Virus record (IMG/VR): IMGVR_UViG_3300044568_000314
Coordinates: 1 to 24,301 of that record
Reading direction: 5' to 3' (one strand)
From: a virus
DNA length: 24,301 nucleotides
Shown piece by piece: positions 588 through 24,301 of this stretch (its first letter is position 1; the number at the start of each line of letters is the position of its first letter). Made by a program: the position numbers and the translations under genes. The notes under the pieces were generated by a model. It had not been told where the DNA came from. It searched no databases and saw nothing but the letters and a program-made list of their open reading frames with translations.

Positions 588-588
588 A

Positions 589-1146
589 TTAATCCTTAAT
601 CCATGTCCAATTGTCTTGACGCATAAACTGAATTTTTTTGTTTACTTCTTTAGCAAACTCATCCACTGCTTTACGAACTTCTGCAATTGTTCCATAATCA
701 TGTCCGCAGAACAAACCATTCTTCTTCAATTTTGGATAATAGTTTTTACAATCTAAAAGAACCTGATCGTATGTGTGTAGTCCGTCAATGAAGATAAAGT
801 CTAAAGACTCGTCTTCAAAATTACTAACTGCGTTATCGGAAGTCATACGATAATGGACATGTCTATCACCATAACGAGAGATGCTATGCATAAAGTTTTT
901 ATATGCATCTTCTCTTTCGTTAAGATTCATGTTGTTCCAATCAATGTAGTTGATGTATGGATCAACGCCATAAAGTTTTAGTCTTGGTATCGTATCAAGA
1001 AGATACCGAGTGCTAATTCCTGTGTCAGTACCTATTTCTAATCCGACAATCGGTTCTGTTCTTTCTCTAAAGACTCTACCTAAATCCTCAGCAGGAAGCC
1101 ATTCATGAACTTGATTATCAGAAGCTTCTACTATGTTATATCTCAT
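589..1146 (-). CDS. Class I SAM-dependent methyltransferase (Methyltransf_24-like)
   Basis: The protein has about 185 residues, and almost all of it is one Rossmann-type methyltransferase domain. Visible motifs are VGLEIGTDTGISTRYLL (SAM-binding motif I), YGVDPY (acidic end of strand 2) and LDFIFIDGLHTYDQVLLD with the IDG-H-Y signature of the Methyltransf_24/MdmC-like group, then GLFCGHDY. Such enzymes are usually O-methyltransferases and often occur in polysaccharide clusters, so methylation of a sugar or glycan is the best guess. I chose the ATG at 1146 because it makes an ATGA overlap with the preceding stop and has GGA about 8 bases upstream; an ATG at 1158 would add four residues. The next gene follows after one base. 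Confidence 0.75.
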   Translation of the reverse strand: MRYNIVEASDNQVHEWLPAEDLGRVFRERTEPIVGLEIGTDTGISTRYLLDTIPRLKLYGVDPYINYIDWNNMNLNEREDAYKNFMHSISRYGDRHVHYRMTSDNAVSNFEDESLDFIFIDGLHTYDQVLLDCKNYYPKLKKNGLFCGHDYGTIAEVRKAVDEFAKEVNKKIQFMRQDNWTWIKD

Positions 1147-2183: not shown

Positions 2184-2198
2184 TATTACCTCATTATA

Positions 2199-3787: not shown

Positions 3788-4685
3788 TTTCTTCTTTCAC
3801 AAGATCATTAATAATTTGATATAAAGTTTCTGGTCTTTTGTATGGATGAAAGTGAAAACGACACTTAGCATCTTCTATATCTACATAGAAAGAATCTAGT
3901 TCTCTCTTACCAAATGTGAAAAACTTTTTTCCTTCTGTTAGGACATTATCTTTTGTTGTCGTAAAACAGAATGGTCCAGAATTTCTGCCAATAATCAGAT
4001 TACAGAACGTAGAGATATATGAAATCTCATTTAAGTCTGGCCGTTCTGATTTGATAATATCGGAAGTAAAGATGACATTCTTCTTGCTACTATTATACTT
4101 ATGTGTTGCATAAAAGTCAATAGCTGGATAAGAATCTGCAACAAATTCTATGATCTCTGAAAGATTACCAGTATAATCGCATTGCCCAGAATGAACTGGT
4201 CCATTAGAAAATAGAACGTTCTTCTTAATCTTATCTATGCTTATGTTTTGACACGCAGGAAACTTGCTATAGTCAATTACAGGAAATAACTTGACCACTT
4301 CTGAAGTAGTAGGATAATCAATTTTTTTGCCTATCCAATTTCCTAGTATATCATATATCTTTTCATACATATAATAATTGAAACGAAAGTTTGTTTCGCC
4401 CTTATATGGCAATATCGCATTTGTGTCATCAAACCATGCGCCGACCCAAGTGTTGATAAAGAGTGAATCTGACGATTCTAACAGTTGAGTATATTTGTGT
4501 AGCTGATTACTTATTGGAAGAACCTGTCTATATTCACATCTCATATCTTGAAGAAGTTTTGGCCCCCAAGGATGATGATACCAAAACTTAGTATCAGGAA
4601 AATAGTCCATTAAGAATTGTACAAATCCTCTACTATGAAAAATATCGCCATTATGAAAATGATTGAAGAATACGATATCTTTCAT
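3771..4685 (-). CDS. Putative GT-B-like glycosyltransferase of unknown family
   Basis: The 304-residue product opens with DIVFFNHFHNGDIFHSRGF, like the first strand and GD-x-x loop of GT9/GT-B glycosyltransferases. A C-terminal nucleotide-binding-like segment reads LIIGRNSGPFCFTTTKDN. These two halves suggest a two-Rossmann GT-B fold, but I cannot place it in a named family. The ATG at 4685 forms a TGATG junction with the preceding stop, so translation is probably coupled; a GTG one codon upstream is possible. Its position between a DUF4254-like protein and a fucosyltransferase supports a glycan role. No transmembrane segment is evident. Confidence 0.5.
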   Translation of the reverse strand: MKDIVFFNHFHNGDIFHSRGFVQFLMDYFPDTKFWYHHPWGPKLLQDMRCEYRQVLPISNQLHKYTQLLESSDSLFINTWVGAWFDDTNAILPYKGETNFRFNYYMYEKIYDILGNWIGKKIDYPTTSEVVKLFPVIDYSKFPACQNISIDKIKKNVLFSNGPVHSGQCDYTGNLSEIIEFVADSYPAIDFYATHKYNSSKKNVIFTSDIIKSERPDLNEISYISTFCNLIIGRNSGPFCFTTTKDNVLTEGKKFFTFGKRELDSFYVDIEDAKCRFHFHPYKRPETLYQIINDLVKEENERSS

Positions 4686-5047
4686 CACTCTTTTACACCC
4701 TTATACAACTTGACCGAATCTTCACGAAGAGACTTTGCATTCACAATAGCATCATCAATGATAGCATTCAATGCAGCCACAAGCTTTGGCCTCTTGATTT
4801 TGAAGCAAATATCAACCTTGCGCTTAAGTTCTGCAAGTTCTTCATCAGACTTAGCTGCCTGCATAGCATCTTCAAGATGCCACGTGCGAATGTGAAGAAT
4901 AGCCAGTTTCTCTAACACTTCACCAATGCTATCTGATGCAGCGTACTCAGAAGACTCAACACCCCACATAGACTTCATATCTAATTTTTCGTTCACATAT
5001 TGCTTGATTATAATATCAAGCATCTCTGCAATAATCTTATTGCTCAT
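4685..5047 (-). CDS. DUF4254-like small helical protein
   Basis: This 120-residue, mostly helical protein contains LAILHIRTWHLEDAMQAA followed by LKRKVDICFKIKRPKLVAAL. It matches the pattern of the DUF4254 family (a W-x-x-ED segment, then K-x-x-ID and R). Members often sit beside glycosyltransferase genes in bacteria and phages, and their biochemical role is not established. The ATG at 5047 has AGGAG at good spacing and forms a TGATG junction with the ColD-like gene's stop. The end overlaps the next start by one base, so the three genes are likely translated as a unit. No catalytic claim is made. Confidence 0.55.
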   Translation of the reverse strand: MSNKIIAEMLDIIIKQYVNEKLDMKSMWGVESSEYAASDSIGEVLEKLAILHIRTWHLEDAMQAAKSDEELAELKRKVDICFKIKRPKLVAALNAIIDDAIVNAKSLREDSVKLYKGVKE

Positions 5048-6213
5048 CACAAACTCCTAATAATTTCATCAAGTATATTCATTTCACGATTACCAACAAA
5101 CTGGTTATTACCTATGTATATACCGTTCTCATGAACGATATCTACATTGTATGGTCCTTTCTTGCAAGCAATCACATGCCCACTCATATATGGCTGACGC
5201 AATAGATTGCCACCAACAACTGGGCGATACTCAATAAAGCTATTCTTCAATCTTCTGAGAAGGCAATCTTTATTCAGTTTATCTCTTGCAATGAACGGGA
5301 AGCAGAATGAACTGTTACCTTCATCATTAGATGGTAAATGAAACTTATGCTGATACTGAGACATAATGCCCATATAGCGATCAAAGTTCTTTCTTCGTGT
5401 CTCAATGAAACCATCTAGCTTCTTCAATTGAGAAAGCCCAAGTACAGCACCAAGTTCAGTATTGCGAAAGTTATAACCAGCAGTGACAAATAAAAACTGA
5501 GGATCAATTTCAGGATGAGTCTCAGCATAATCTTCTGGAACAACAGACACACGCGACATGCCATGTGATCTCTTCATTCGCATTAGATCATACAGATCAA
5601 CATTATTGGTACAGATCATACCACCTTCAACTGTAGACATATGATGCCCGAAGTAAAAGCTGAATGTTGATCCAGTAGTATTTGATCCAGCCTTACATCC
5701 TAATATGTCTTTAGCGCCATGAGATTCACATACATCTTCAAGCATGATTGCATTAGGAAAAATACTGCGAAGAGCATATGTGTTAGCAGGTAAACCAAGA
5801 AGATGTGTCGTGAACACAATGTCAATCTTATGCTTCTTTGCGATAGCAGCAGCATTTTCTAAATCAAAACTGTAGTTATCAAGATTGATATCACAGAACA
5901 CAGGTTCCATACCAAGCTGCATGACTGGATTGATATTGGTTACCCACGTACATGCGGGTACGAGAACCTTGATCTTCTTTTTGTTCTTGAAATACATTTC
6001 TTTGACTGCATCAAGCAATAAGAAGTTTGCTGTGCTACCAGATGTAACAAACAATGAATGATCTACACCTAGCCACTTAGACCAAGCCTCTTCAAACTGT
6101 TCTACTTTCTTGCCTTGAGTGAAACGATTTGCAGTCATTACAAACTTCGCTAACTTGAAGCGATCATTCCAAGTTAGTGTATCCTTCATCAGCGGCCAAT
6201 CATACTCTATCAT
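5047..6213 (-). CDS. ColD-like GDP-4-keto-6-deoxymannose 3-dehydratase (PLP, DegT/DnrJ fold)
   Basis: The 388-residue length and layout match the DegT/DnrJ/EryC1/StrS aminotransferase fold: TSGSTANFLLL (58-68), VPACTW (85-90), LEDVCESHGA (158-167) with the PLP-binding Asp160, and SFYFGHHMSTVEGGM (185-199). In sugar aminotransferases the residue before the S/T-x-EGG loop is the PLP lysine; here it is His191, as in ColD and in the E1/AscC dehydrases. E1 enzymes also need a cysteine-rich iron-sulfur site, which is absent, so ColD is the better fit. ColD removes the 3-hydroxyl of GDP-4-keto-6-deoxymannose, the product of GMD two genes upstream. RPVVGGN near residue 333 also fits the family. Start ATG has AGGAAA upstream. 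A histidine-bearing enzyme with another GDP- or dTDP-sugar substrate remains possible. Confidence 0.78.
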   Translation of the reverse strand: MIEYDWPLMKDTLTWNDRFKLAKFVMTANRFTQGKKVEQFEEAWSKWLGVDHSLFVTSGSTANFLLLDAVKEMYFKNKKKIKVLVPACTWVTNINPVMQLGMEPVFCDINLDNYSFDLENAAAIAKKHKIDIVFTTHLLGLPANTYALRSIFPNAIMLEDVCESHGAKDILGCKAGSNTTGSTFSFYFGHHMSTVEGGMICTNNVDLYDLMRMKRSHGMSRVSVVPEDYAETHPEIDPQFLFVTAGYNFRNTELGAVLGLSQLKKLDGFIETRRKNFDRYMGIMSQYQHKFHLPSNDEGNSSFCFPFIARDKLNKDCLLRRLKNSFIEYRPVVGGNLLRQPYMSGHVIACKKGPYNVDIVHENGIYIGNNQFVGNREMNILDEIIRSL

Positions 6214-7144
6214 ATATTTTCCTATTTTCTAAGAACCAATCAATCGTAGTCTTCAATCCATCTTCAAGTGAAGTCTTGGCTTTCCAGCCGAGTGCATCCA
6301 TCTTGCTAGTATCTAGTGCGCGTCTTGGTGTACCGTTAGGCTGTGCAGTATCCCAGATGATATTACCTGTATAACCAACAAGCGATGCAATCAATTCTGA
6401 TAAGTATCTAATAGACACTTCACGATTTGGTCCAATGTTGATTGGCTTAGGATCATCATAGTTGTTCATCAAGAAAATTAGTCCGTCAGCCAAATCATCG
6501 GCAAAAAGAAACTCTCGCGTAGGTGTACCGTCACCAAAGCACATTACTTGCGACAAACCCTTTTCTTTCGCGTCGATAAACCGATTGATGAATGCAGGTA
6601 TTACATGACACTCATTCAGTCTGAAGTTATCGAAAATGCCATAGAGATTATTTGGCATGACGGAAACAGTTTGCATACCATATTGCTCAGTATACTTCTG
6701 ACACATGGTAAGACCAGCAATCTTCGCTAGAGCATAACCAATGTTAGTCTCTTCAAGCGGACCAGTCATCAAGTATTCTTCTTTGATCGGCACAGGCGCA
6801 TGTTTTGGATAGATACATGCTGTGCCTAGAAACATTAGCTTCTTACAATCATGCAAACGAGCCGAATCAATAACGTTTGTCTGTATTAATAAGTTATCGC
6901 GAATAAAGTCCGCAGGATATGCCTTGTTAAATCCAATACCACCAACTTTTGCAGCAGCTAGAAACACATACTCAGGCTTCTCATAGTAAAAAAATTCATT
7001 AACTTCTTTTTGATTTCTCAGATCAAGACTGCCCGATGTTGTTATATAATCATAACCCTGCGCTTTTAATCTGCGAATGAGTGCAGAGCCAACAAGTCCT
7101 TTATGGCCTGCAATATAGATTTTACTATTACTGTCCATGAACAC
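6200..7144 (-). CDS. fcl: GDP-L-fucose synthase / GDP-colitose synthase-type epimerase-reductase
   Basis: The 314-residue extended SDR has the cofactor motif GHKGLVG (13-19) and the GFS block [17 protein letters not shown] (107-123). All residues expected for GDP-fucose synthase are present: Thr108 (Ser/Thr), Tyr137, Lys141, and the two epimerisation acids Cys110 and His180. It should epimerise C3/C5 and reduce C4 of GDP-4-keto-6-deoxymannose using NADPH to give GDP-L-fucose. The homologue ColC carries out the parallel C5 epimerisation and reduction to GDP-colitose, and with a ColD-like gene directly downstream that role is equally plausible. I chose the GTG at 7144 because GAGG lies 6 bases upstream; the ATG at 7138 is too far from it. 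It overlaps gmd by 17 bases. Confidence 0.88.
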
Positions 7145-8129
7145 ACATATCCTCTACAAGCTTTTCAAATGTAAACTGTGGGCGCCAACCAAGCTTTCTC
7201 TTAGCCTTCTCAGGATTACCCAACAGCGTTTCAACTTCAGCAGGACGGAAGTAACGCTCATTGACACGAATGCGAACTTCACCTGTTTGATCAATGCCAA
7301 CTTCATTTAAACCTTTGCCTTCCCAACGCATACGCATACCAAAGTAAGGAGCAGCGGCATCAACAAACTGACGAACTGAATACTGTTCACCAGTTGCTAT
7401 CACATAGTCATCTGGTTCTGGTTCTTGTAACATTAGCCACATAGCGTGAACGAAGTCTTTAGCATGACCCCAATCGCGTTTTGCATTTAGATTGCCAAGT
7501 TCAAGTACCTTCTGTCCACCCATACTGATACGAGAAAGTCCCTGTACAATCTTACGTGTCACAAATGTTTCGCCTCGACGAGGACTTTCGTGATTGAAGA
7601 GAATGCCTGATGAACAATGCATGCCATATGCTTCACGATAATTCTTCACAATCCAATAACCATACATCTTTGCAACACCATATGGTGAGCGAGGATAGAA
7701 TGGTGTTGTTTCACTCTGAGGTGTTTCTTGCACAAGTCCATAAAGTTCAGACGTTGAAGCTTGATAGATACGAACATCTTTTTCCATGCCAAGTAGACGC
7801 ACGGCCTCAAGAATGCGAAGAGTGCCTAGTGCGTCTACTTGTCCGGTGTATTCAGGAATTTCAAATGACACCTTCACATGTGACTGTGCCCCAAGATTAT
7901 AAATCTCGGTTGGTCTGATCTCCTGAATTAGGCGAATGAGTGATGATCCGTCTGTCAAGTCTCCATAGTGCAGTTTAAGATCAGGATAGATATGATCAAT
8001 GCGATCGGTGTTGATAGAAGAAGATCGGCGAATAATGCCGTGTACTTCATAACCTTTCTGTAGTAGTAACTCAGCAAGATAGGATCCGTCTTGTCCAGTA
8101 ATACCTGTAATCAGTGCTACAAATCTCAT
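7128..8129 (-). CDS. gmd: GDP-mannose 4,6-dehydratase
   Basis: The 333-residue protein begins with [18 protein letters not shown], the NADP(H)-binding motif of GMD, followed by the [15 protein letters not shown] loop specific to this family. The catalytic residues are visible in STSELYG (125-131) and YGVAK (150-154), and [17 protein letters not shown] (177-193) is the GMD hallmark that binds GDP-sugar. It converts GDP-D-mannose to GDP-4-keto-6-deoxymannose, the branch point for fucose, colitose, rhamnose or perosamine. GDP-mannose itself must come from the host, as no mannose-activating gene is in the window. The start forms a TAATG junction with the preceding stop. Confidence 0.95.
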
Positions 8130-9043
8130 TATCTATACTTCCTCTCAATCTTATCCTTCAGTCCATTTATACGATCATATTGATGAATGATATAATATGG
8201 TTCGTTGTTTTTGTTGCACACAACATCATCATTTATAATCACATCATCATATAGAGCAACATTTCTGAACTTATCTAGTGTTGATGGATCTCGCAAGTAG
8301 TGTTGACCAATTTCTCCTGCACCAGACTTAACAGCAGACAACGTTGTTCCAAGATGACAGCACCAAGCTGTTTCTGGTGTTTCATATTGCGTTATGATAT
8401 TCCACGCATGAGTAGATAATAAAACATTCAATGCTGCTTGATCTGGACCACCACCACCTGGCGTCAATGCTGCTGTTCCTCTACATAGCATAAAGATGCT
8501 CAAGAAAAGATCAAGAATAACTTCTTTACGACCAGCAATAACACCAGCACAATAGATAGGTCTGTCCATAACTTTCTGATATACAGATGGACCAAATGCA
8601 CAATTCATATTATTAACGTTCCACGGTTCATCTTTATATAAGAAGTTTTCAGATGCGACAATAATGTCAGACTTGCTAGATACGATAAGATCGTCAATAT
8701 AGTCTGAAGGATTCTTCTGAAAGATAACATCACGAACATCCGTAGCGATGATGTGATCGATCTCATTTTCTAACTGACTTATAAAATACCACATATGAGC
8801 GAAACGTTCTACGACAATACTGAAATTTTCTCTATTATAAACGTAATTGCCTTTCTCATCTTTCTCAAAAGCGAAGATTGTAAAGTTCTTCTCTTGCAAC
8901 TTTTCAATCACATCAGCTTTACAGTTATATGCAATAATGGCTTTTATGCCAGAAAATCCCGATTTCTCAATAGAATTTATCCAAGGTTCAATCTGATTGT
9001 ATGTATAGTTTGAGATTGAACCGATAATTAAATCTTGAGCCAT
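8129..9043 (-). CDS. Putative GT-A-type glycosyltransferase
   Basis: The 304-residue protein has the motif [15 protein letters not shown] (98-112). This is the D-x-R-D variant of a GT-A metal-binding motif, as seen in several nucleotide-sugar transferase families of plants and bacteria. It starts with a short beta strand, [14 protein letters not shown], and lacks a signal peptide or membrane segment. A glycine-rich loop, [16 protein letters not shown], in the second half resembles acceptor-side D-Q motifs of such transferases. The ATG at 9043 has AAAGGA upstream. The gene overlaps the preceding GT2 gene by 16 bases and ends in a TAATG junction with gmd. I cannot assign donor or acceptor. Confidence 0.5.
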
Positions 9044-9786
9044 GGTAACTGTCCTTTATAATGATTGAGTTGTTGTTTGTTGCCTTCAATGAAGAAGTTT
9101 CCATTAACAGATTGTGGATTGTTGTCTACACGATAACATAAAGTATGCTTACCATTCGTGTCCCATTTGCTCATCTCTCTAATCTTATAGAGATATCTGC
9201 GATCTTCACCCCAAGCACCAGAATGCCAGAGATGACAAGTCAATTGAATAAACTCGCGCTTGAAAGCAAAAGCAGATGTATCTACAAGATACTGGGGATT
9301 GTCGTGAGTGAAGTAAATAGGCCAGCGACCCAAGCTCTCACAGTTATCATCGGCAATGTGTTGCTTGTCTGAAGTATAAATCTTGCGAAGCGAATACGCC
9401 CAATCAAGATTGTTCTTTTCAATTGTTTCAACAAGAGTTGACACATGATTAGGTTCATACCAGTTATCTTCATCAAGAAAGAATATATAATCTGAATTAA
9501 TGAGATGCGGAAAAGAAGCGTAGATGCGTTGACCATTAAAACCGTTTGCGCCAGTATTAAAAGGTATTGTTGTTACTATTATGTTATCATACTTTTTATC
9601 TTCATAATCAAGTGTTACTGGAAGACAGTCAAAAACATTTTTCCAATATTCAACTCCATCAACCACAATCAAATGTTTGATGTTAGAATATGTTTGTTCC
9701 TGCACAGAGCGAATGGCGTCAGCTAATTTAGAAGAGCCAATTGTCGGAGTAACAACAATAACAGATTTTTCAATATTGAGTTTCAT
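9028..9786 (-). CDS. GT2-family glycosyltransferase
   Basis: The 252-residue product starts IEKSVIVVTPTIGSSKLADA and continues VQEQTYSNIKHLIVVDG, the standard GT2 N-terminus. YIFFLDEDNWYEPNHV follows, carrying the D-x-D that binds the metal and sugar nucleotide. It is therefore an inverting GT-A glycosyltransferase, probably acting in the cytoplasm since no membrane segment is seen. I placed the start at the ATG at 9786, which has a TAGG ribosome site. An in-frame extension upstream to 9843 would run through the hairpin and promoter and is unlikely. It is the first gene of the glycan island, directly behind a strong promoter. Confidence 0.82.
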   Translation of the reverse strand: MKLNIEKSVIVVTPTIGSSKLADAIRSVQEQTYSNIKHLIVVDGVEYWKNVFDCLPVTLDYEDKKYDNIIVTTIPFNTGANGFNGQRIYASFPHLINSDYIFFLDEDNWYEPNHVSTLVETIEKNNLDWAYSLRKIYTSDKQHIADDNCESLGRWPIYFTHDNPQYLVDTSAFAFKREFIQLTCHLWHSGAWGEDRRYLYKIREMSKWDTNGKHTLCYRVDNNPQSVNGNFFIEGNKQQLNHYKGQLPWLKI

Positions 9787-9805
9787 GATATACCTATTAG
9801 AATGA

Positions 9806-9830
9806 GAGGATGCTAGTATATAGCATCCTC
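9806..9830 (-). terminator. Perfect hairpin between pstS and the glycan island
   Basis: A perfect 10-bp stem (9806-9815 with 9821-9830) closes a 5-base loop. No U-run follows on the minus strand, so it is at best a weak intrinsic terminator or an RNA processing/stability element for pstS transcripts reading through. A transcript starting from the overlapping promoter would contain only its last arm and could not form it. Confidence 0.5.
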
Positions 9831-9843
9831 CGCATAGTGTCAA
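9815..9843 (-). promoter_or_regulatory. Sigma70-type promoter of the glycan island
   Basis: On the minus strand TTGACA (9843-9838), a 17-base spacer and TATACT (9820-9815) form a near-consensus promoter. It starts 4 bases after the pstS stop and points into the glycan genes. The predicted transcript start is near 9808. The -10 box lies in the second part of a hairpin (9806-9830). Confidence 0.8.
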
Positions 9844-9846
9844 GTT

Positions 9847-10815
9847 TTAGTTAAGAGAGATAAGGCCCTTTTCAGTCAAGTAACCTTCTTCACCGATAGC
9901 ATCTTCACTCTTGTATGCTTCCATAAATTCCTTAAGATTAGGAATAACATCAAAGTGTTCGTTCTTGAAATACACAAACAATGGGCGAGAGATAGGATAC
10001 TTACCTGCCTTGATTGCATCATATTCAGGAGCAATACCGTCAACAGTCGCACCCTTTACAGTAGATGCACTTTCTTCAAGGAATGAGTAGCCGAAGATAC
10101 CAAGTGCATTCGGGTTATTCTGTAGCTTCTGAATGATTAGAGTATCATTCTCACCAGCTTCAATGAATGCACCATCTTCACGCATAGACTTACACATAGA
10201 CTTTTCTTCATCTTCTGTAACAGTCAATTCATTGGCCTTGATGGCAGCCTTACATGCCTTTTCCATCACAAGTTCTACAAACGAGTCGCGTGTACCAGAA
10301 GTAGGAGGAGGACCAAGCACTTCAATCTTCCTATCAGGCAGTGCAGGATTTACGTCCTTCCAAGTCTTGTAAGGGTTCTCAACAACTTCACCATCAATGA
10401 TCACAAACTTGGCTAATGCACGATAGATATCATCCTTAGTCAAGTTCATGTCTTCGTGTTCTTTTGCCATAGCAATAACGATGGCATCATAACCAATCTT
10501 GACTTCGGTTGCAGTTACACCGTTTGCCTTACAAGTTTCAGCTTCACTGTCCTTCATTGGGCGAGAAGCGTTCACTGCGTCAGGATGTTCGTCGCCAACA
10601 CCAGCACAGAATAACTTGATGCCACCGCCTGTGCCTGTTGATTCAACAACAGGAGTTGGTGCTCCAGATGTCTTACCAAACTGTTCTGCTACTGCGGTTG
10701 TAAAGGGATAAACTGTGGAAGAACCCACAATGCGAATAGTGTCACGGGACGCATATGCTGTGCTAGTGCCAAAAGCAAATAGAGCAGCAGCCAAAATAAT
10801 CATCTTACTCTTCAT
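9847..10815 (-). CDS. pstS: PstS-like periplasmic phosphate-binding protein
   Basis: With the start at 10815 the product is 322 residues. It has a textbook signal peptide (MKSKMIILAAALFAFGTSTA, then YA before the cleavage point). Mature-protein motifs are IVGSSTVYPF (29-38), ESTGTGGG (58-65), NASRPMKDSE and GPPPTSGTRDSF (169-180), the phosphate-contacting segments of PstS. It would be exported and deliver phosphate to the host's PstCAB transporter; no transporter genes are seen here. The style resembles alphaproteobacterial PstS. I chose the ATG at 10815 because GGAAA lies at proper spacing and the signal peptide begins there; longer in-frame starts at 10827 or 10911 run into a terminator. 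No clear Pho box was found upstream. Confidence 0.9.
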   Translation of the reverse strand: MKSKMIILAAALFAFGTSTAYASRDTIRIVGSSTVYPFTTAVAEQFGKTSGAPTPVVESTGTGGGIKLFCAGVGDEHPDAVNASRPMKDSEAETCKANGVTATEVKIGYDAIVIAMAKEHEDMNLTKDDIYRALAKFVIIDGEVVENPYKTWKDVNPALPDRKIEVLGPPPTSGTRDSFVELVMEKACKAAIKANELTVTEDEEKSMCKSMREDGAFIEAGENDTLIIQKLQNNPNALGIFGYSFLEESASTVKGATVDGIAPEYDAIKAGKYPISRPLFVYFKNEHFDVIPNLKEFMEAYKSEDAIGEEGYLTEKGLISLN

Positions 10816-10830
10816 ACATTTTTCCATAGT

Positions 10831-10860
10831 AAAAATTGAGGGAGACCATTCCCCCTCAAT
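10831..10860 (-). terminator. Intrinsic terminator upstream of pstS
   Basis: On the minus strand an 8-bp perfect stem (10860-10853 with 10842-10835), extendable to 10 bp with one G-U pair, closes a 6-base loop and is followed by a run of five T (10835-10831). It lies between the 49-residue gene and the pstS start, only 4 bases before a potential ATG, so pstS expression depends on readthrough or on release of this hairpin. Confidence 0.78.
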
Positions 10861-10871
10861 ATGTAGTTTAG

Positions 10872-11021
10872 TTACCAGTTGCTTCTTTGTGCATGAGACA
10901 TACGGTCCCATTCACGCTGAAGGTATTCAAGATGAACTTGATCCGTAGCCTGACTTAGAAAGTCGTGCATACGTTCTTGTTGAGTGCGAACAGAAAACAG
11001 TTTCTTTAGGTATGAAACCAT
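10872..11021 (-). CDS. 49-residue DUF3563-like protein
   Basis: A short gene begins at the ATG at 11021, overlapping the Hsp20 stop by one base (TAATG), and ends at 10872. The 49-residue product has MHDFLSQATDQVHLEYLQRE followed by WDR, close to the pattern of DUF3563 (YL-x-x-A-D-x-x-x-LE-x-R-x-RE-x-DR), small proteins of unknown function common in proteobacteria. The N-terminus is basic (YLKKLF). The tight coupling to the chaperone gene and the terminator just after it argue that it is a real, co-translated gene. Confidence 0.6.
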   Translation of the reverse strand: MVSYLKKLFSVRTQQERMHDFLSQATDQVHLEYLQREWDRMSHAQRSNW

Positions 11022-11515
11022 TACTTGTCGCCATATTTTTCAGATAGAAACTGCTTTGTCGCTTCGCCAATATGATTGTCTGATTTTTCACCGATATTAA
11101 TTTTCTTCGGTTTCTTCTCTTCAGGAATAAAGCGTTCGAGCCAAATTTTCAACATACCATTGATAAGGTCTGCATTCTTGATTTCAACAGTATCAGCAAG
11201 TGTGAACTGACGGGTAAATGCACGTTCAGCAATACCCTTATAGATATAGTCGGCATCATCAGTGATAATATTACCTTTTACGGTAAGGATACCTTCCTGC
11301 AATTCAAGTTCAAGGTCTTGCTTGCCAAAACCAGCAACTGCCATTTCAATGACATACTTGTTTTCATCAACCTTCTTGATATTGTAGGGAGGATATGTAG
11401 GAATTTTAGGCATAGATTCAGTCATCTCTGTCAATCGCTTGATGATATGATCAAAACCAATTGTAGTATTAAGTTGTTTGGAAAAAGAGAAAGGATCGTA
11501 ATTGAGCTTGTGCAT
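11021..11515 (-). CDS. ibpA: Hsp20/IbpA-type small heat-shock chaperone
   Basis: The 164-residue protein is a small heat-shock protein of the bacterial class A (IbpA) type. The N-terminus contains TTIGFDHIIKRL, and the alpha-crystallin domain starts at YPPYNIKKVDENKYVIEMAV and includes AGFGKQDLELELQEGILTVK, YKGIAERAFTRQFTL, and the terminal NGMLKIWLERFIPEEKKPKK. The KKINI near the end supplies an I-x-I-like tail for oligomerisation. It would hold unfolded proteins, host or virion, during infection. The ATG at 11515 has AGGAG at 8 bases. It has its own strong promoter and a structured 5' leader. Hsp20 genes are known in T4-like phages of marine bacteria. Confidence 0.92.
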   Translation of the reverse strand: MHKLNYDPFSFSKQLNTTIGFDHIIKRLTEMTESMPKIPTYPPYNIKKVDENKYVIEMAVAGFGKQDLELELQEGILTVKGNIITDDADYIYKGIAERAFTRQFTLADTVEIKNADLINGMLKIWLERFIPEEKKPKKINIGEKSDNHIGEATKQFLSEKYGDK

Positions 11516-12343: not shown

Positions 12344-13660
12344 TTATCTTGAAATTTCTTCCCAATCCATAGATCCATGAACTTCTAAACCATCAGTCAC
12401 TCCTGTAACTGAGAGAGTTAGAGGATAACCAGCTGTACCGTTCAAAGAATCTCTTTCTAACTGGAACTTAAATAGTGCTTCTTTTAGAATATCGGTCGGC
12501 ACGGAACTCTGAGTATCTGATGCCATATATCCTTGAGCCATTACTATACCACCAGTTACAACATTGTTTGCTACCATGTTATATTCAACAGCCGAATCTA
12601 CACCAGCAGATGTAAACGTGTTATTAGCTAATGTTGCGTTACGAATGACTTTCCATAAAAACTTACCGTTATTACCAATACCCATTACCGACAGTGCAGT
12701 AAGAATGACTATAGCATCTTTTCTAGCATCTTTCAATCGTATTGATGCGACAACATAATCTGTACCAGCAACAGGCAAGTTTCTAGGTACTTTTATTTCT
12801 GTGCCGATAGACTGCTGGAATCCTCTGAGTTCATAACCACCTTCTGAAATGACAGTGGAACATACCTGCTTCAATGTGCTATTATTACCTGTAGCACCAA
12901 CATTCTTAATCTCATATCTCAAAGGTAGAGATGCAGTAGTCATATATGTAGAAGTGACGCGGTTAGCATGATGGAAAGAGTGGCAGTGTATTAGCTGTCC
13001 ATCGATTACAAATCCACAACGAACTGTACCAAGACCTAACCATTCAATATCTGTAAAGAGAATTTGTGCTTTACTCAGGTCTAGAGTTCTCTGAGACGGG
13101 CTACCCTCTACTGCACCAAGAAGTGTGTCTATATTCCAATCTACTTGTGCAACTCTATTTTCAGTCACCGCGCCAGATGATAAACTTCTTTCAACAAAAT
13201 AGATATCGCTGTTGGCCTGTTCTAGATAGATACCGTTATTTGCACCGTAATACCCAACTCTCTGTATCAAATTTGTCTGAGCATTAGCCATTACAAATGT
13301 ATTCATCACCTGTAATGATTTGCCTGGCTGATATGAGAAGACTTTGGTTGTTTCACGGATAATCTGATGACTACTAGTCGTACCAATAGAAAGATTGATT
13401 AGACCTTCATTGGGAGAAAATGTAATTGTGGTGCCAGAACTATTAGACTGTACCCAAAGTCCGTTGTCTCTGTACCTGTGAGATGAATCGAATAGAGTTA
13501 ATGGCATAGAAACTCTGGATCTACCAAATGCGTCTACGGACATACCAGACGGATTAGCTGGACCAACAAGATTGCCGTATTGATCGGCTAACATCATGAC
13601 TTCAAAGATTGTAGTCTCTTGTGGTAGATACTTGTGCGTATCTTTACGGAACTGTGCCAT
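12344..13660 (-). CDS. Putative virion structural protein
   Basis: The 438-residue protein begins MAQFRKDTHKYL and soon has SVDAFGRSRVSMPLTLFDSS followed by HRY. This phrase recurs in structural proteins of marine T4-like phages, where the rest is beta-rich and low in charged residues, as here. Many Thr, Ser, Asn and Gly residues and the lack of catalytic motifs fit a tail, fibre or capsid-decoration protein. The start has AAGGAAG upstream and lies only one base after the regA stop. A structural gene inside a replication operon is unusual; I see no late-type promoter in front of it. The precise virion position is unknown. Confidence 0.6.
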   Translation of the reverse strand: MAQFRKDTHKYLPQETTIFEVMMLADQYGNLVGPANPSGMSVDAFGRSRVSMPLTLFDSSHRYRDNGLWVQSNSSGTTITFSPNEGLINLSIGTTSSHQIIRETTKVFSYQPGKSLQVMNTFVMANAQTNLIQRVGYYGANNGIYLEQANSDIYFVERSLSSGAVTENRVAQVDWNIDTLLGAVEGSPSQRTLDLSKAQILFTDIEWLGLGTVRCGFVIDGQLIHCHSFHHANRVTSTYMTTASLPLRYEIKNVGATGNNSTLKQVCSTVISEGGYELRGFQQSIGTEIKVPRNLPVAGTDYVVASIRLKDARKDAIVILTALSVMGIGNNGKFLWKVIRNATLANNTFTSAGVDSAVEYNMVANNVVTGGIVMAQGYMASDTQSSVPTDILKEALFKFQLERDSLNGTAGYPLTLSVTGVTDGLEVHGSMDWEEISR

Positions 13661-15829: not shown

Positions 15830-16777
15830 TCAGTTATATTCACATTCTACCATAAGTTCAGTCAGACATGCAACCAAATTTATTTCTTGATCCGCAACAA
15901 ACGCAGACTGGTACTGATACTTACCGATAGTCACAACAGCTTGCGGAATGCTGTGTGGCTTCATATACTCATACAGACCATCATAAATCTTGCGATAGAT
16001 CCGTGCAGGTTCAATGTCAGAATTTGCTACACACCACTTTCGCATCTCACCAAAACTCTTGTCCTTCAGGTGCTTAACCAAGTCGCCAATCTTACGAACA
16101 TCGGACAGTTGTGCAACAATTCCTGCATCAAGAGAACCAGAAGAACTGTAACGCTGTAACTCATTAAGAGTACGGCGATAGTCGGGAAAGAACTTCTCAA
16201 TGATCTTGGCTAGAACTGTCTTGTCGTATGTCACACTTTCCTGTGTAAGAATGTTTTCCATACGCTTCATCAATTGTGAAGCCATCTTAGCCTTCTCATC
16301 ATTCTTCAATGCAAAGTCAATGACAGAACACCGAGAATGAATAGCTTCAATCAGCTTGGACTTGAAGTTACAAGTGAAGATGAAAGTACAATTCGCAGCA
16401 AACTCTTCAATTGCACCACGCATAGCAGCCTGTGCGTCTGGAGTCATATAGTCTGCTTCGTCTAGGATAATAACCTTCTTACCACCAGTCAGAGATACGG
16501 TTGAAGCATAGTTGCGAATGGTGGTTCTCAGCACATCAATACCACGATTTTCAGAAGCATTGATGTACAAATGATTGATACCAATCTCATCACACATGGC
16601 CTTTGCAACAGTTGTCTTACCGACACCTGCTGTACCAGTCAGCATGAGATTAGGAATCTCTTTGTTTTTTACATACTCTTGAAACGGTTTCTTCAGCCGA
16701 TCAGGAAGAATACAGTCAGTGATCGTTGAGGGGCGGTACTTTTCTACCCATAGGAAGGATTCGGTCATCAATTTCAT
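15830..16777 (-). CDS. 44: Clamp-loader ATPase subunit gp44
   Basis: The 315-residue AAA+ protein begins LWVEKYRPSTITDCILPDRL, the standard clamp-loader N-terminus. It has Walker A GTAGVGKT (48-55), Walker B VIILDEAD (102-108 plus D) and the SRC motif (148-150) that supplies the arginine finger to the neighbouring subunit. This is the T4 gp44/RFC-type loader, which with gp62 uses ATP to place the gp45 clamp on DNA. The start could be the ATG at 16777 or at 16768, three codons later; neither has a strong ribosome site, and both lie inside the 85-residue gene, which it overlaps by about 60 bases, suggesting coupled translation. Confidence 0.95.
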   Translation of the reverse strand: MKLMTESFLWVEKYRPSTITDCILPDRLKKPFQEYVKNKEIPNLMLTGTAGVGKTTVAKAMCDEIGINHLYINASENRGIDVLRTTIRNYASTVSLTGGKKVIILDEADYMTPDAQAAMRGAIEEFAANCTFIFTCNFKSKLIEAIHSRCSVIDFALKNDEKAKMASQLMKRMENILTQESVTYDKTVLAKIIEKFFPDYRRTLNELQRYSSSGSLDAGIVAQLSDVRKIGDLVKHLKDKSFGEMRKWCVANSDIEPARIYRKIYDGLYEYMKPHSIPQAVVTIGKYQYQSAFVADQEINLVACLTELMVECEYN

Positions 16778-17255: not shown

Positions 17256-17921
17256 TTACTTGCTCTCCAGTGCGATGAAATACTTGATCTTGTCTTTGAA
17301 AACGCCGCTGATTGCTGTGAACTTGGCGAATGCACCAAGCTGAATTTCAACATCATAGTCACCAGGAATCAGCTTGATGTTGTCAACCTTGAACGATGCA
17401 GAAAAGTCTTCACCAGAATAATCGTTCAACTTGAATGACGCATGATTGGAAGTGTCGTTAGCCTTTTCATGTGTCTGCAAACGAATCTCACCATCTTTAC
17501 CAACAACAGAAAGATGCGTCAGATTGTTCATGGCGGCAAGACGAAGGAGCTTTGTTAGAACGATATTTGTGAGACTGAAGCTAACATCAGTCTGCTTCAG
17601 TTTAAGTTCCTTATCAGGCGGCGACACAATCAGATTGATTGAACAAGAATAGTAATTGAACTTGATCTCACCATCATTCATGATCACGGCACTGTCCGAG
17701 AACGTAAGCTCTGGGCTATTCAATGTGCTGATATTGCCAAGAAACTGGTTCAGATCATAGATGCCGAACTGTTCTGGCAATGAGTCTTCAAGTTCCACCT
17801 CTACGAGAATGGACTTCTCAGGCGAGATGGTCTTTTGAATGTTACCCTTCTGAAGAACAATTCCAGAATTGATTGAGGAAAAGTTCTTCAGAACACTCAG
17901 GGTGTTGTCACTAAGCTTCAT
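17256..17921 (-). CDS. 45: Sliding clamp gp45
   Basis: The 221-residue protein opens MKLSDNTLSVLKNFSSINSG, nearly the same as T4 gp45, followed by IYDLNQFLGNISTLNSPEL. Its C-terminal end, IPGDYDVEIQLGAFAKF and KYFIALESK, also matches the clamp. gp45 forms a trimeric ring that tethers the phage DNA polymerase and in T4 serves as mobile activator of late transcription. The ATG at 17921 has TTGGAG upstream. The order 45, dsbA-like, orf85, 44 differs from T4 by two inserted genes. Confidence 0.95.
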   Translation of the reverse strand: MKLSDNTLSVLKNFSSINSGIVLQKGNIQKTISPEKSILVEVELEDSLPEQFGIYDLNQFLGNISTLNSPELTFSDSAVIMNDGEIKFNYYSCSINLIVSPPDKELKLKQTDVSFSLTNIVLTKLLRLAAMNNLTHLSVVGKDGEIRLQTHEKANDTSNHASFKLNDYSGEDFSASFKVDNIKLIPGDYDVEIQLGAFAKFTAISGVFKDKIKYFIALESK

Positions 17922-17946: not shown

Positions 17947-18603
17947 TTAGGCAGCTATTGTAGCAGGGTTTTTCGGTCCTGTAAAGACCTTTAGCATGTG
18001 AGTTACATCTGCTTCCAACATACTAAGTGCGCCTTCGTTTACCAGATGATAGTCCATGATTGAACCAATCCACGCCCATTCAGAGTAGTGAACGGAAGGA
18101 TAGTAAATGGACATTTGCGACACTGGTGGATCAAATCTATTTACATTATCTGACTGTGCAGTATCATACCACTCAGGGTCAGGGCCACGTTTGACGCGAA
18201 CAACAAAACCACCCTTAGACTGAATGAACTTGATTTCGTTAGGAAAGCGAACGTCGGCGATAACAACATTAGGATAAAGTTCAAGTCTTCGCTCAAGTGA
18301 GTAGACCCAAATATTTGGATCAATCATATCACGACCAACTTCAGTGCCCATCAGCTGTAGCATGTTTCGTGGAGTGATATGCTTGCCAGTCTTTTCAGAC
18401 CACCACTCATCCTTCTCTTCACGCCACGCACGGCTTTCAGCAGTCTCACCCTCAAGAAGGTGTCGCGGCCATCCGAAGATGGCCGCTGTAGCATCCTTCA
18501 CTGTATCAGCAAAAGACAGTTTTGTGAAGTTATGTTTCTGGACAAGAATGTCAGCGACAGTTCCCTTGCCCGTGCCGATAAATCCAACAACACCAATGAT
18601 CAT
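17947..18603 (-). CDS. 1: Deoxynucleoside monophosphate kinase (gp1-like)
   Basis: The 218-residue P-loop kinase has GFIGTGKGT (7-15), then LSFADTVKDATAAIFGW, LMGTEVGRDMIDPNIWVY, and VVIADVRFPNEI, the typical order of T4 gp1-type dNMP kinase. Its job is to phosphorylate dNMPs from degraded host DNA, possibly including modified dCMP, to dNDPs. In T4 it handles hydroxymethyl-dCMP, which is worth noting because this phage also carries a TAGT-family protein linked to hydroxymethylated bases. The start ATG has AGGAAA upstream, and one base separates its start from the preceding stop. Confidence 0.85.
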   Translation of the reverse strand: MIIGVVGFIGTGKGTVADILVQKHNFTKLSFADTVKDATAAIFGWPRHLLEGETAESRAWREEKDEWWSEKTGKHITPRNMLQLMGTEVGRDMIDPNIWVYSLERRLELYPNVVIADVRFPNEIKFIQSKGGFVVRVKRGPDPEWYDTAQSDNVNRFDPPVSQMSIYYPSVHYSEWAWIGSIMDYHLVNEGALSMLEADVTHMLKVFTGPKNPATIAA

Positions 18604-19887: not shown

Positions 19888-21129
19888 TTAGAAAGCAATT
19901 TCAGGGTCATCAATCTTAGCTTCGGCCGCAGCCTCAGCAGGCTTCGGATTGACAGTCTCGTCCAGCTTCATGTAGAGATCCATAAAGCCGTTCTTAGTAT
20001 CAACATCAAAACGGTTCAGACAAAGCTTGACTGCCTTCTCACGGTCGCGACCGAAGATCGCAAAGGCTTCGCAAATGTGAACCAGACGGCGAGTGGAGAT
20101 GATATCGGAAACCGCACCATCGTAGAATGCCTTACGGATCATGTCAGCCCAATTGACAAGCTTGTCAGCAAAGTCCTTGTCTTCAATGCCAGAGGCCTGA
20201 AGAACATTGTTCAGGATCTTTGCTTCAATCTTAACAGAAGGATATTCCTGCTCAAACGTGATGGAGAAACGCTCAAGGAACGCTTCGTTCATAACGTTGG
20301 TGCCGATGAAGCGACCATCGTCAGAACCCTTACCCTTGGTGTTAGCCGTAGCCAGAATGTTGAATCCAGCAGCAGGCGTAATCACGCGGTTGATCTTCTT
20401 AAGATAGATCGGCTTGCCTTCGAGGACAGGCTGGAGACACATAAGCTTGGCATCACCAAGATCAACTTCGTCCAGAAGCAGGATAGCACCACGTTCCATG
20501 GCCACGATAACAGGACCGTTCTGCCAAACAGTCTTACCGTCAATGAGACGGAAGCCACCGATCAGATCATCCTCATCCGTTTCCTTGGTGATGTTAGCCC
20601 GAACCAGTTCACGACCTTCCTGGGCGCAAATCTGTTCAATCATCATGGTCTTACCGTTGCCAGAGAGACCAGTCACATAAGTCGGATAGAACTTACCAGA
20701 CTTGATGATCATCCGAACGTCAGAGAAGTGACCAAACGGCACGTAGCCCTTAGCCTTAGACGGTACCAGAGTAATAGCTTCGGACGTATGAAGAGCAGCC
20801 ATATTCAGATCCTCTTGATTGGCCACAGCAATAGCCATGTTTGGTGCAACGGGAACTTCCGAAGCAATCTCGGAAGCGGCGATAACATTCTTAGTTCGCT
20901 TCACACCCTTAGCAGTTTTAGCCACAGGCTGGACGGTAACGCTAGAGTCATCAAGAGAGTAGACACCGCGACCAACACGGCGCGAGTCGTCCTTGACGAG
21001 CCACGTCGGATACGAAACATCGCAGTTCTCATAGAGATGAACCAACTGCTGGCGAGAGATGGTCTTGATATCACCATACTCAGCCTTGACAGCGGCGAAG
21101 AATGCACTCTTATCAACGGACTTAGCCAT
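19888..21129 (-). CDS. cobS: CobS-like (MoxR-type) AAA+ ATPase
   Basis: The 413-residue protein has a variable N-terminal part (about 1-125) and an AAA+ core with Walker A GLSGNGKT (154-161), Walker B ILLLDEVD (216-223), and ILATANTKGKGSDDGRFIGT with a sensor-like asparagine. This core resembles CobS, the ATPase of aerobic cobaltochelatase, and MoxR ATPases. Because no CobN chelatase is present and the partner next door is a VWA protein, it is more likely part of a phage MoxR-VWA remodelling pair than a vitamin B12 enzyme. cobS-like genes are widespread in T4-like cyanophages. It has a perfect-consensus promoter and AAGGAAA as ribosome site. Base composition is clearly richer in G+C than in the glycan island. 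Confidence 0.85.
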   Translation of the reverse strand: MAKSVDKSAFFAAVKAEYGDIKTISRQQLVHLYENCDVSYPTWLVKDDSRRVGRGVYSLDDSSVTVQPVAKTAKGVKRTKNVIAASEIASEVPVAPNMAIAVANQEDLNMAALHTSEAITLVPSKAKGYVPFGHFSDVRMIIKSGKFYPTYVTGLSGNGKTMMIEQICAQEGRELVRANITKETDEDDLIGGFRLIDGKTVWQNGPVIVAMERGAILLLDEVDLGDAKLMCLQPVLEGKPIYLKKINRVITPAAGFNILATANTKGKGSDDGRFIGTNVMNEAFLERFSITFEQEYPSVKIEAKILNNVLQASGIEDKDFADKLVNWADMIRKAFYDGAVSDIISTRRLVHICEAFAIFGRDREKAVKLCLNRFDVDTKNGFMDLYMKLDETVNPKPAEAAAEAKIDDPEIAF

Positions 21130-21167
21130 TAGAAACTTTCCTTGTGTGTGTTTTGGATTATGTATAT

Positions 21168-21196
21168 ATTATAGTCCAGGAAGAGGTGGTTGTCAA
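21168..21196 (-). promoter_or_regulatory. Perfect-consensus sigma70 promoter of the CobS-like gene
   Basis: TTGACA (21196-21191), a 17-base spacer and TATAAT (21173-21168) on the minus strand. The upstream gene's TGA stop (21195-21193) lies inside the -35 box. No hairpin is evident in the short leader. Confidence 0.88.
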
Positions 21197-23412
21197 GCGG
21201 CAATTCGCTTGACAAACCGAGAGAGTAGTACGCGGGACACAGCCTTCTTTTCCGAAAACTTGATGAATTCCGATGCAATCTTTTTCTTAGACATATCGGA
21301 ACTAATAGCAAGTTTTCCAGAAGAAACATCAAACGACTTATGGTTGATGATGTAGTATTCATCATACCCAGAGGTTGTTGCACCAAAGAACCCGCTGTTT
21401 TTCCAATCAGTTGATGCCTTCTTGTAAGCTTCGCCAGACTGCCCGTTGACACGGCCATAAGCCTGACTGAAGCCATAAGAAGTGATGTAGAAGCCGATTA
21501 GATTACAGCCAGTACGATCCTTGAGAACACGGAGAAGCAAACCAGTCATAGCCTTATCAGAATAAGGATCCCGATGATAATATGAATGTGTGTTCTCAGA
21601 CCGAATATCATAGGACTTCTTGGTAATTTCATCCTGAAGAATATACTTGCGCGTTTTCCAAGACGAAGGAAGCCCATGAATGTGAGAAATCGGATCGGAC
21701 TCGCCGTCAGTCAGGAAGACTGTGTTAACAATCTGAACCCGAGACTTAGCTTTGAACCGATTGATGATCAAGTCAGCCACACCGATGCATTCATTCAGAG
21801 GCGTTGAAGTCATGCTATCACAGTGAAGATTTCCGTTGCATGCCATCACATACAGATGGAACATTGCATCATTGAATTCTGCAACATTCATCCGCGATGA
21901 AAGCAGATTACGGGCCACGAAGTTGTCAAAGTCCAGTTCGTTCTGGTTCCTAGTGAATGACCGAACACTGACACGGCCACTATCAACATCAAAACCAGTG
22001 GTGCTACGGAACGAATAGACTTCAAACGGGATCTGCACTCGCTTACAGAACATGGTCAGCGAAAGCAACTGCTTGACAGTCTTCTTTAGATGAAGATCCA
22101 TAGAGCCAGACCAGTCAACGAACATGACGAAGCCATGATTCTTACCAGACGCAACCGTGGTAATACGACGGAACAGGTCATCATTGTACCGATAAGAATG
22201 AAGCTTATTAGTATCAATCACGCCAGTCTTAGCCACGCTGGTACGCGAGTGTTCATCGGCTGACTTCCGCATTTCAAACTCCTTGACCATGAAGGAGATT
22301 GACGCATTTTCTTCCGACTTGAACTTCTGGAGTTCCTGGCGAACAGTCTTGAGCCAATCTTGATTCCAGAAACCAGCAATACACTTGCGCTGATCAGCAA
22401 GAACAATCTTGTAATCATTGACAACCTGTTCATACTTGACAGGGCGAGGTATCTTGACGTAGACATATTCCTCGTCGGACTTGATTACCAAGTCTTCCTG
22501 ATTTTTCTGCCAAGCCTTTTCAGTTTCAGACTCGGGAATGTCATCATCAGACTTTGCACCAACGTTCAGTGGGTCATCAGAGTCGCGCTTGTCATCGCCA
22601 TCACCAGCTTCGGTATCGTCCGAATCAGACTCATCGTCATCCTCGTCCTCATCATCAGAGTCATCCCCGCGACCAGATGAATAGTTTTCATCATCATCGC
22701 CGAAATCTTCATCATCAGATTCGTCCGAGAAATCATAATCGTCCTCGTCGGACATGCCGCCCTTAGCCCGCATATCGTCCATGTCAGTCTCAGGCTCGTC
22801 CTGTTCCTGCTTAGACTTAGACCAACCGAAGATTTCTTCCGTGAGAGCCATGACCTCATCAAAAGTCTCAGCCGCGTCAACCCGATCAACCATGATCTTT
22901 TCTTCGGCCGAGAACTTGATGCCCGACATTGCACCACCCTTAAAGTAGATATTCAGGCGATCAATGAAAGACATAGAGTTAACGTCCTTGGTCTTGGTAC
23001 CAAAGAAGTCCTTTTCAATTAGTTCAGCATAGCCCTTAACATAGTTCCGACGAGCACCAGGGAAGCGGCGCTTCTGGCGCTTGTCAATGCGGGCGTCTTC
23101 AATAACGTTAAGGAAGCCCTTGACCGCAGCCAGAGCCTTGTTAGAAGCCGAGCCAGTCACACGGGTAGCAATGTCTTTGAGTGCATCCATCCAGCCGTCA
23201 GCGGGTGTGTCAAGAGCATGACCAACCTCGTGAACGACCAGCATGTCATACAGGTCATTAGACATTTCGCGCCACACGGGAAGAATAAGGACACGGTTCT
23301 TAACGTCAAACATGGCCGTCTTAGCGGCGGCGCTATGCTGTACCGTAATGTTTTCCGTAGCCAGCAGCTTGGCTAGCTGGGACTTGGCGTTATGATTGTG
23401 TGTTACTTCCAT
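21193..23412 (-). CDS. CobT-like protein: HEXXH metallopeptidase-like domain, acidic linker, VWA domain
   Basis: The 739-residue protein has three parts. The N-terminal region carries HEVGH (61-65), a zinc-metallopeptidase-like motif, followed by NVIEDARID (102-110), whose Glu105 could be the third ligand and which resembles the corresponding part of CobT. Residues about 205-290 are extremely rich in Asp, Glu and Ser, as in the linker of CobT. The C-terminal von Willebrand A domain has the MIDAS motif DWSGS (433-437), a Thr near 537 and FLTDGESD (566-573). VWA proteins of this kind work with MoxR/CobS ATPases, and the CobS-like gene is directly downstream. Whether the peptidase site is active, and on what, is unknown. 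Confidence 0.8.
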   Translation of the reverse strand: MEVTHNHNAKSQLAKLLATENITVQHSAAAKTAMFDVKNRVLILPVWREMSNDLYDMLVVHEVGHALDTPADGWMDALKDIATRVTGSASNKALAAVKGFLNVIEDARIDKRQKRRFPGARRNYVKGYAELIEKDFFGTKTKDVNSMSFIDRLNIYFKGGAMSGIKFSAEEKIMVDRVDAAETFDEVMALTEEIFGWSKSKQEQDEPETDMDDMRAKGGMSDEDDYDFSDESDDEDFGDDDENYSSGRGDDSDDEDEDDDESDSDDTEAGDGDDKRDSDDPLNVGAKSDDDIPESETEKAWQKNQEDLVIKSDEEYVYVKIPRPVKYEQVVNDYKIVLADQRKCIAGFWNQDWLKTVRQELQKFKSEENASISFMVKEFEMRKSADEHSRTSVAKTGVIDTNKLHSYRYNDDLFRRITTVASGKNHGFVMFVDWSGSMDLHLKKTVKQLLSLTMFCKRVQIPFEVYSFRSTTGFDVDSGRVSVRSFTRNQNELDFDNFVARNLLSSRMNVAEFNDAMFHLYVMACNGNLHCDSMTSTPLNECIGVADLIINRFKAKSRVQIVNTVFLTDGESDPISHIHGLPSSWKTRKYILQDEITKKSYDIRSENTHSYYHRDPYSDKAMTGLLLRVLKDRTGCNLIGFYITSYGFSQAYGRVNGQSGEAYKKASTDWKNSGFFGATTSGYDEYYIINHKSFDVSSGKLAISSDMSKKKIASEFIKFSEKKAVSRVLLSRFVKRIAA

Positions 23413-23435: not shown

Positions 23436-23464
23436 ATCTTAAACTGAATCGTGGGTGGTGTCAA
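23436..23464 (-). promoter_or_regulatory. Sigma70-type promoter of the metallopeptidase/VWA gene
   Basis: TTGACA (23464-23459), a 17-base spacer and TAAGAT (23441-23436; 4 of 6 consensus) on the minus strand. The preceding gene's TGA stop (23463-23461) is nested in the -35 box, as with two other promoters here. Confidence 0.65.
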
Positions 23465-23832: not shown

Positions 23833-24301
23833 CTAAGTCTTTGATATCTTTCGCAGAACCATACCATAATTGTTGACCTTAGGGAAACTCTTCAAATCAA
23901 TTCCAGGTTTCAATCTCAACTTATTATCTTCTGGTCCCAAACCAAGCTTCTTTCTCAACGGATGATTGAGATTCTGGAATGGCTCATAGTTCACATAATG
24001 ATGCCAGCGTCCATACTTCCATGCGATTCTAGCCACGTCTGGATGCATGTCTACAAGCATTTGAGACTTATTGATTGTGCCTGTTGCATTCAATTGCCCA
24101 TCACGCCACTTGCTCTTATCTAGATCACCTTCAGCATGATAGAACTCTGCTGTATTGCCACCCTTGACTGTTTGGGTTGCAGCTTTGCCTTGCAGAAAGT
24201 TATTGAACTGAATGGTACAATCACCATCTTTCAGAACACGGAGACAAATGTCAGTGTCTTCATTGTATCGGCCACGCCAGCGATGCTTGCAATGAAGACA
24301 C
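23833..24301 (-). CDS. TET/JBP-associated glycosyltransferase (TAGT) family, C-terminal part
   Basis: The frame is open from the window edge to the stop at 23833, giving the last 155 residues. A TTG or other start inside this stretch is not needed, because the visible part begins within the domain. It reads CKHRWRGRYNEDTDICLRVL, then CTIQFNNFLQGKAATQTVKG and GNTAEFYH, KSQMLVDMHPDVARIAWKYG, RWHHYVNYEPF and a final NNYGMVL. NEDTD, KGGNT and the RW-x-H-x-V-x-Y block are those I know from TAGT, proposed to glycosylate hydroxymethylcytosine or thymine made by phage TET/JBP dioxygenases. The N-terminal sugar-nucleotide part is outside the window. Confidence 0.75.
   Translation of the reverse strand, partial: CLHCKHRWRGRYNEDTDICLRVLKDGDCTIQFNNFLQGKAATQTVKGGNTAEFYHAEGDLDKSKWRDGQLNATGTINKSQMLVDMHPDVARIAWKYGRWHHYVNYEPFQNLNHPLRKKLGLGPEDNKLRLKPGIDLKSFPKVNNYGMVLRKISKT

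Follow-up and report, generated by a model that had tools for sequence, protein, structure and literature searches.

A MoxR-type ATPase and a CobT-like protein with a predicted gluzincin site beside the replication genes of T4-like cyanophages

The window analysed here is the whole 24,301-nucleotide stretch of IMG/VR record IMGVR_UViG_3300044568_000314, a 24.3-kb piece of the genome of an uncultured T4-like phage. On its minus strand, a gene for a CobT-like protein of 739 residues, in which a gluzincin-like N-terminal domain is joined to a VWA domain, is followed after 63 bp by an open reading frame (ORF) for a CobS-like ATPase. The pair had been singled out from the letters of the sequence (hereafter the original prediction) as an ATPase gene following a protein with an HEVGH motif, an acidic linker of roughly 85 residues and an intact VWA domain. 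The coordinates were exact and all of these parts are present, the linker measuring 82 residues. The pair and its parts are as follows.

19888..21129, minus strand: CobS/MoxR-type AAA+ ATPase, 413 residues, counterpart of T4-GC150 (AAA_5, phrog_249 and PDB matches)
20647..20661, minus strand: Walker A motif GNGKT, ATPase residues 157-161 (motif inspection)
21193..23412, minus strand: gluzincin-VWA protein, 739 residues, CobT-like, counterpart of T4-GC146 (phrog_459 'peptidase' match)
21478..22137, minus strand: VWA domain with metal ion-dependent adhesion site (MIDAS), residues about 426-645 (MIDAS invariance; Foldseek match to the NorD VWA domain)
22549..22794, minus strand: acidic linker, predicted disordered, residues 207-288 (predicted local distance difference test score, pLDDT, <50, and composition)
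22795..23412, minus strand: N-terminal domain (residues 1-206), related by homology to that of CobT; minigluzincin-like fold predicted (AlphaFold2, AF2; Foldseek; hhalign)
23086..23109, minus strand: NVIEDARI motif, residues 102-109, with E105 as predicted third metal ligand (E105 invariant)
23218..23232, minus strand: HEVGH motif, residues 61-65 (HEXXH invariant in relatives covering the site)

The Walker A and B, sensor 1 and arginine-finger motifs of the ATPase are intact and near-invariant across 87 relatives. The protein matched AAA_5 (E = 3.8e-17) and CbbQ_C (21.5 bits, cut-off 20.6) in Pfam and belongs to phrog_249 'porphyrin biosynthesis' (E = 3e-115), while its sequence matches in the PDB were Midasin, CobS, CbbQ and NorQ, with the AAA+ domains of Midasin ranking top. 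Direct Pfam and PDB sequence searches with the 739-residue protein gave nothing useful; it belongs to phrog_459 'peptidase' over residues 6-738 (E = 5e-201). Its MIDAS is complete (D433, S435, S437, T537, D569), and the linker contains 31 Asp and 9 Glu and carries a net charge of -34.

As an HEXXH string also occurs by chance in 2.1% of composition-shuffled copies of the 739-residue protein, the motif by itself is weak evidence, and its conservation was analysed in a set of relatives comprising 80 viral-contig loci and 13 genome-assembly loci, which mostly have phage neighbours. Relatives in viral contigs share 34-100% identity with the window protein. After reduction at 90% identity, H61, E62 and H65 of the HEXXH motif as well as E105 were invariant in all relatives covering them (51-52), and the five MIDAS residues in 55/55. 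Failure of HEXXH to be conserved had been named beforehand as grounds for giving up the idea of a peptidase-like site, which thus stands at the level of the sequence. In zincin peptidases, the glutamate of HEXXH serves as general base and is not a metal ligand.

Structure prediction gave a full-length model with a pLDDT of 74, in which the linker is disordered, and a model of the N-terminal domain alone (AF2, residues 5-206) with a pLDDT of 88. In the full model, HEXXH is predicted to lie on helix 52-68 and E105 on the following long helix 91-116. The best PDB match of the full model in Foldseek was the VWA domain of NorD in the NorQD complex (E = 1.7e-4). For the N-terminal domain, each of the ten best PDB matches was either a minigluzincin (jannalysin, abylysin, selecase) or had the ArdC metallopeptidase fold, with E-values of 0.1-0.7 and probabilities of 0.95-1.00 in eight of them; the next match, an unrelated fold, had a probability of 0.05. 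The three predicted ligands may form a zincin-like site, the best fold matches being minigluzincins at E-values of about 0.1. Together, these features suggest that the gluzincin domain is probably active.

The original prediction had regarded the HEXXH domain as an addition to a CobT-like layout. The layout was recognised correctly; the addition was not. A T5-like phage protein (L085) combines HEVAH with clear Pfam CobT matches (PF06213, E = 9e-27; PF11775, E = 8e-82). Alignment of the T4-like N-terminal region with the T5-like phage CobT set by hhalign placed HEVGH over HEVAH (probability 99.1, E = 1.3e-18), and the T5-like set in turn aligned almost end to end with cellular CobT (probability 100, E = 1.3e-40). 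These intermediates were needed because a direct comparison of T4-like and cellular CobT profiles gave an alignment confined to the VWA region. From this chain of profiles we concluded that the HEXXH domain corresponds by homology to the N-terminal domain of CobT, has kept its metal-binding residues and was not added. At the HEXXH position, the 31 cellular CobTs compared read as in RGHADSMALRLACHD; HEXXH was found at the aligned position in 0/31 and in none of a handful of further cellular CobTs, and nearly all of the 31 retain the glutamate of E(Q/T)AR-E. Cellular CobT therefore resembles a gluzincin whose site has been lost, a direction of change that we infer from an unrooted comparison.

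Catalytic-type sites also occur in CobT-like proteins outside the T4-like phages. One bacterial genome (L142, 4588-6783) encodes a CobT-like VWA protein that keeps HECGH; its gene adjoins a primase-like gene and seems to belong to a mobile element. An IncHI2 plasmid (L154, 2693-4693) encodes a CobT-like VWA protein with HEXXH near a toprim gene. A plasmid search with the window protein gave no match; the CobT of Vibrio phage ICP2 as query retrieved phage-plasmids and IncHI2 plasmids. In Pseudoalteromonas phage vB_Psh_XG4 (L004, 5884-8126; record marked unverified), the HEXXH and VWA domains are encoded by two ORFs in swapped order.

The pair itself is not new: phrog_459 and phrog_249 both belong to the T4-like cyanophage core, and the window adds a new member to an under-described family. 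A tblastn search with the 739-residue protein found matches in 463 phage records, nearly all of them cyanophages, and protein identity to T4-like cyanophage isolates is about 31-40%. The window holds the freshwater version of a pair common to nearly all T4-like cyanobacterial viruses, of which cobS is a published core gene (PMC3037559), reported at about one copy per myo-cyanophage and steady with depth (PMC9983427). In viral contigs, the cobS ORF lies directly downstream of the VWA gene wherever the sequence extends, with one outlier showing a 468-bp gap (L084); several genome-assembly loci have wider gaps or other cobS positions. Upstream of the pair, gp46 was found in 62/65 loci with enough sequence; downstream, gp45 followed in 54/55 and gp44 in 53/55. 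The window shows only the downstream half of this gp46-[pair]-gp45 arrangement, with the two neighbours below, and relatives show both sides.

17256..17921, minus strand: gp45 sliding clamp, conserved downstream neighbour (phrog_223; 54/55 synteny)
15830..16777, minus strand: gp44 clamp loader, conserved downstream neighbour (phrog_168; 53/55 synteny)

Cyanophages S-PM2 and P-HM2 have the gene order gp47, gp46, peptidase (T4-GC146), cobS (T4-GC150), gp45 and gp44, with gp62, regA and hsp20 beyond, and the window keeps this downstream order (gp45, gp44, gp62, regA, Hsp20) with extra genes inserted. The nearest structural-protein gene in the window (12344-13660) lies past regA. Unrelated carriers show comparable neighbours, as the CobT-like gene adjoins DNA polymerase III alpha in T5-like phages and primase, helicase and polymerase genes in ICP2.

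Both genes had further been credited with strong promoters of their own, and sigma70-like candidates were found at the following positions.

23436..23464, minus strand: sigma70-like promoter of the VWA gene, TTGACA-17-TAAGAT (sequence match)
21168..21196, minus strand: sigma70-like promoter of cobS, TTGACA-17-TATAAT (sequence match)

Sites with >=10/12 promoter matches were found 5' of cobS in 82% of distinct relatives vs 1.5% of shuffles, and 5' of the VWA gene in 51% vs 2.8%, so that the claim of separate promoters, both conserved well above shuffles, holds as far as sequence can tell. Each TTGACA -35 box shares bases with the stop codon of the gene before it (window positions 21196 and 23464).

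Taken together, the data are compatible with a two-gene MoxR AAA+/VWA machine that would remodel proteins, has a gluzincin that is probably active and may work with replication and recombination, a reading whose chances of being right we put at roughly even. In this best explanation, for which we infer ring assembly, zinc binding, proteolysis, early expression and a replication-stage client, the CobS-like ATPase would form a ring into which the VWA domain of the CobT-like partner would plug, its MIDAS metal holding the client. The N-terminal gluzincin domain, with zinc-binding and catalytic residues intact, would hang on an acidic tether of about 80 residues, and ATP hydrolysis would twist or pull the VWA part against this tethered domain and thereby remodel the client, as proposed for NorQD; the metallopeptidase would then probably cut it. 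The pair would be made early in infection, and the likely client would be a protein of the replication or recombination stage, not a corrin ring. We advance more tentatively the wider proposal that cobS and the 'peptidase' gene, long counted as B12 auxiliary metabolic genes, encode an ATP-driven machine of phage replication with an active metallopeptidase, and that, in the family that gave rise to the B12 enzyme subunit CobT as a dead gluzincin, the catalytic form survives in phages and plasmids. Three observations weigh against such readings: gene order in T4-like phages is no proof of function, the E-values of the N-terminal fold matches fall short of conventional significance, and two T5-like phages (L086, L090) and an Acinetobacter phage-plasmid (L152) keep a CobT-like gene without HEXXH, so that part of the wider family appears to do without catalysis. 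These natural losses of the catalytic site lend themselves to comparison.

Phage CobS and CobT have alternatively been read as products of auxiliary metabolic genes that join a host CobN-type subunit and raise cobalamin, e.g. for ribonucleotide reductase. A B12 auxiliary role has been discussed for cobS (PMC2984593), and a study describing cobST as part of the cyanophage core proposed hijacking of host CobN and considered cobT to be 'mistakenly annotated as a peptidase' (PMC8651126). This is consistent with the true CobT homology established through the T5-like proteins and with a weak match of the ATPase to the CobS equivalog; moreover, hosts may supply CobN, and the Synechococcus elongatus control genome, with its CobN-Mg_chel match, illustrates that a host-like genome can hold the subunit. 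However, the ATPase remains below the cut-off of the CobS equivalog TIGR01650 (96.9 of 558.55 bits) and the VWA protein far below that of the CobT equivalog TIGR01651 (13.7 of 759.05 bits, E = 0.019), Pfam CobT (PF06213) gave no match in the 739-residue protein, and HEXXH is invariant in T4-like relatives yet gone from the cellular CobTs examined. In keeping with the initial remark that no chelatase subunit is seen, CobN (PF02514) was found in 0/16 phage records searched, six of them possibly incomplete; it matched in 12/15 genomes with cellular CobT-family matches. The place of this core gene amid replication genes and its reported copy number, constant with depth (PMC9983427), are likewise unlike those of a niche-dependent metabolic gene. 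Cobalt chelation by the pair is therefore disfavoured and the auxiliary metabolic role appears improbable, and the invariant HEXXH and Glu suggest that the 'peptidase' annotation may be correct. No paper joining cobS, cyanophage and MoxR was found in the literature searched, and the main text of a cyanophage transcriptome paper (PMC5082946) holds no statement on cobS or the peptidase.

A machine that remodels and processes structural proteins during virion assembly or maturation, as proposed for the MoxR-vWA-metallopeptidase pair of jumbo phages (PMC7824862), would suit a protease domain, and a passage of the same paper cites a MoxR-vWA system that an archaeal virus needs to assemble its tail. 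The neighbours gp46/gp47 and gp45/gp44/gp62, however, are not head or tail genes, T5-like and ICP2 carriers are also found beside polymerase genes, and sigma70-like promoters are expected for early or middle rather than late genes. Replication-gene neighbours in unrelated carriers and the promoters thus favour, on circumstantial grounds, a putative role at the replication/recombination stage, and we consider virion assembly unlikely. Of the two settings first suggested, takeover or virion assembly, the gene order speaks against the latter. It is also conceivable that HEXXH and the additional Glu bind a metal to be inserted into, or to stabilise, a partner in a NorD/CobT-like maturation, and no peptide is cleaved. 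The best-studied MoxR-VWA pairs indeed mature metalloproteins (PMC13036017, PMC9976466), and the three wider-family relatives lacking HEXXH would fit. However, E62, in peptidases the general base and not a ligand, is invariant, which argues for catalysis over metal delivery and leaves the latter with little probability in our estimation.

The suggestion of an ATP-driven remodelling or processing machine therefore fits the data, in an architecture that was already known from cyanophages and described in jumbo phages. Midasin (Rea1/MDN1), whose AAA+ domains resemble the window ATPase and which also uses a MIDAS VWA domain, is a single huge chain that acts on pre-60S ribosomes, and we know of no gluzincin partner for it. 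Among the closest known systems is the cyanophage pair T4-GC146 and T4-GC150, with full-length homology and the same gene order and neighbours (gp46 - peptidase - cobS - gp45 - gp44). The window lineage differs in being uncultured and in carrying a sugar/base-modification island with a TET-associated glycosyltransferase (TAGT) upstream. Group 2.2 jumbo phages are described as having a MoxR ATPase and a vWA partner with an N-terminal metallopeptidase (Iyer et al. 2021, PMC7824862); that study puts forward virion assembly as the role and says nothing of CobS/CobT. Profile A1 gave no match in either Atu_ph07 or SCTP-2, the two jumbo phages searched with it, and the proteins named in the study were not located in three phage records. 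NorQ/NorD (and CbbQ/CbbO) likewise unite a MoxR AAA+ protein with a VWA partner that has an N-terminal domain and a long disordered linker. For NorQD, in which NorD consists of an N-terminal domain, an unresolved linker and a VWA domain, a finger-in-pore and twisting mechanism has been described (PMC13036017); this system, however, matures nitric oxide reductase, and PMC13036017 and PMC9976466 mention no peptidase motif for NorD. Viral CobST (Liu et al. 2021, PMC8651126) and the aerobic cobaltochelatase CobNST share the CobS-like ATPase and the CobT-like N-terminal domain, acidic linker and MIDAS VWA domain, whereas the window pair retains HEXXH, scores below the chelatase equivalog cut-offs and comes without CobN in the phage records searched.

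The island occupies window positions 1-10911, 17947-18603 and 23833-24300 and encodes three nucleotide-sugar epimerases, an aminotransferase, two methyltransferase-like ORFs, the TAGT and a deoxynucleoside monophosphate kinase, which suggests that the phage DNA is glycosylated or hypermodified. A PstS-like phosphate-binding protein (9847-10911) and Hsp20 (11021-11515) are accessory genes typical of cyanophages. A defence-system search with PADLOC gave no match, and a defence-system reading was dropped.

The cobS/cobT pair is usually filed under B12 synthesis, and cobS serves as a marker gene and a cited auxiliary B12 gene for one of the ocean's most abundant virus groups. The pair is of interest mainly because it casts doubt on the B12 label given to an abundant core gene of marine viruses. 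If the partner indeed has metallopeptidase activity and the pair acts in replication, the B12 annotation of cobS should change, the origin of CobT from a protease-type ancestor would become a concrete hypothesis, and the function of a core gene would be testable by one point mutation (E62Q).

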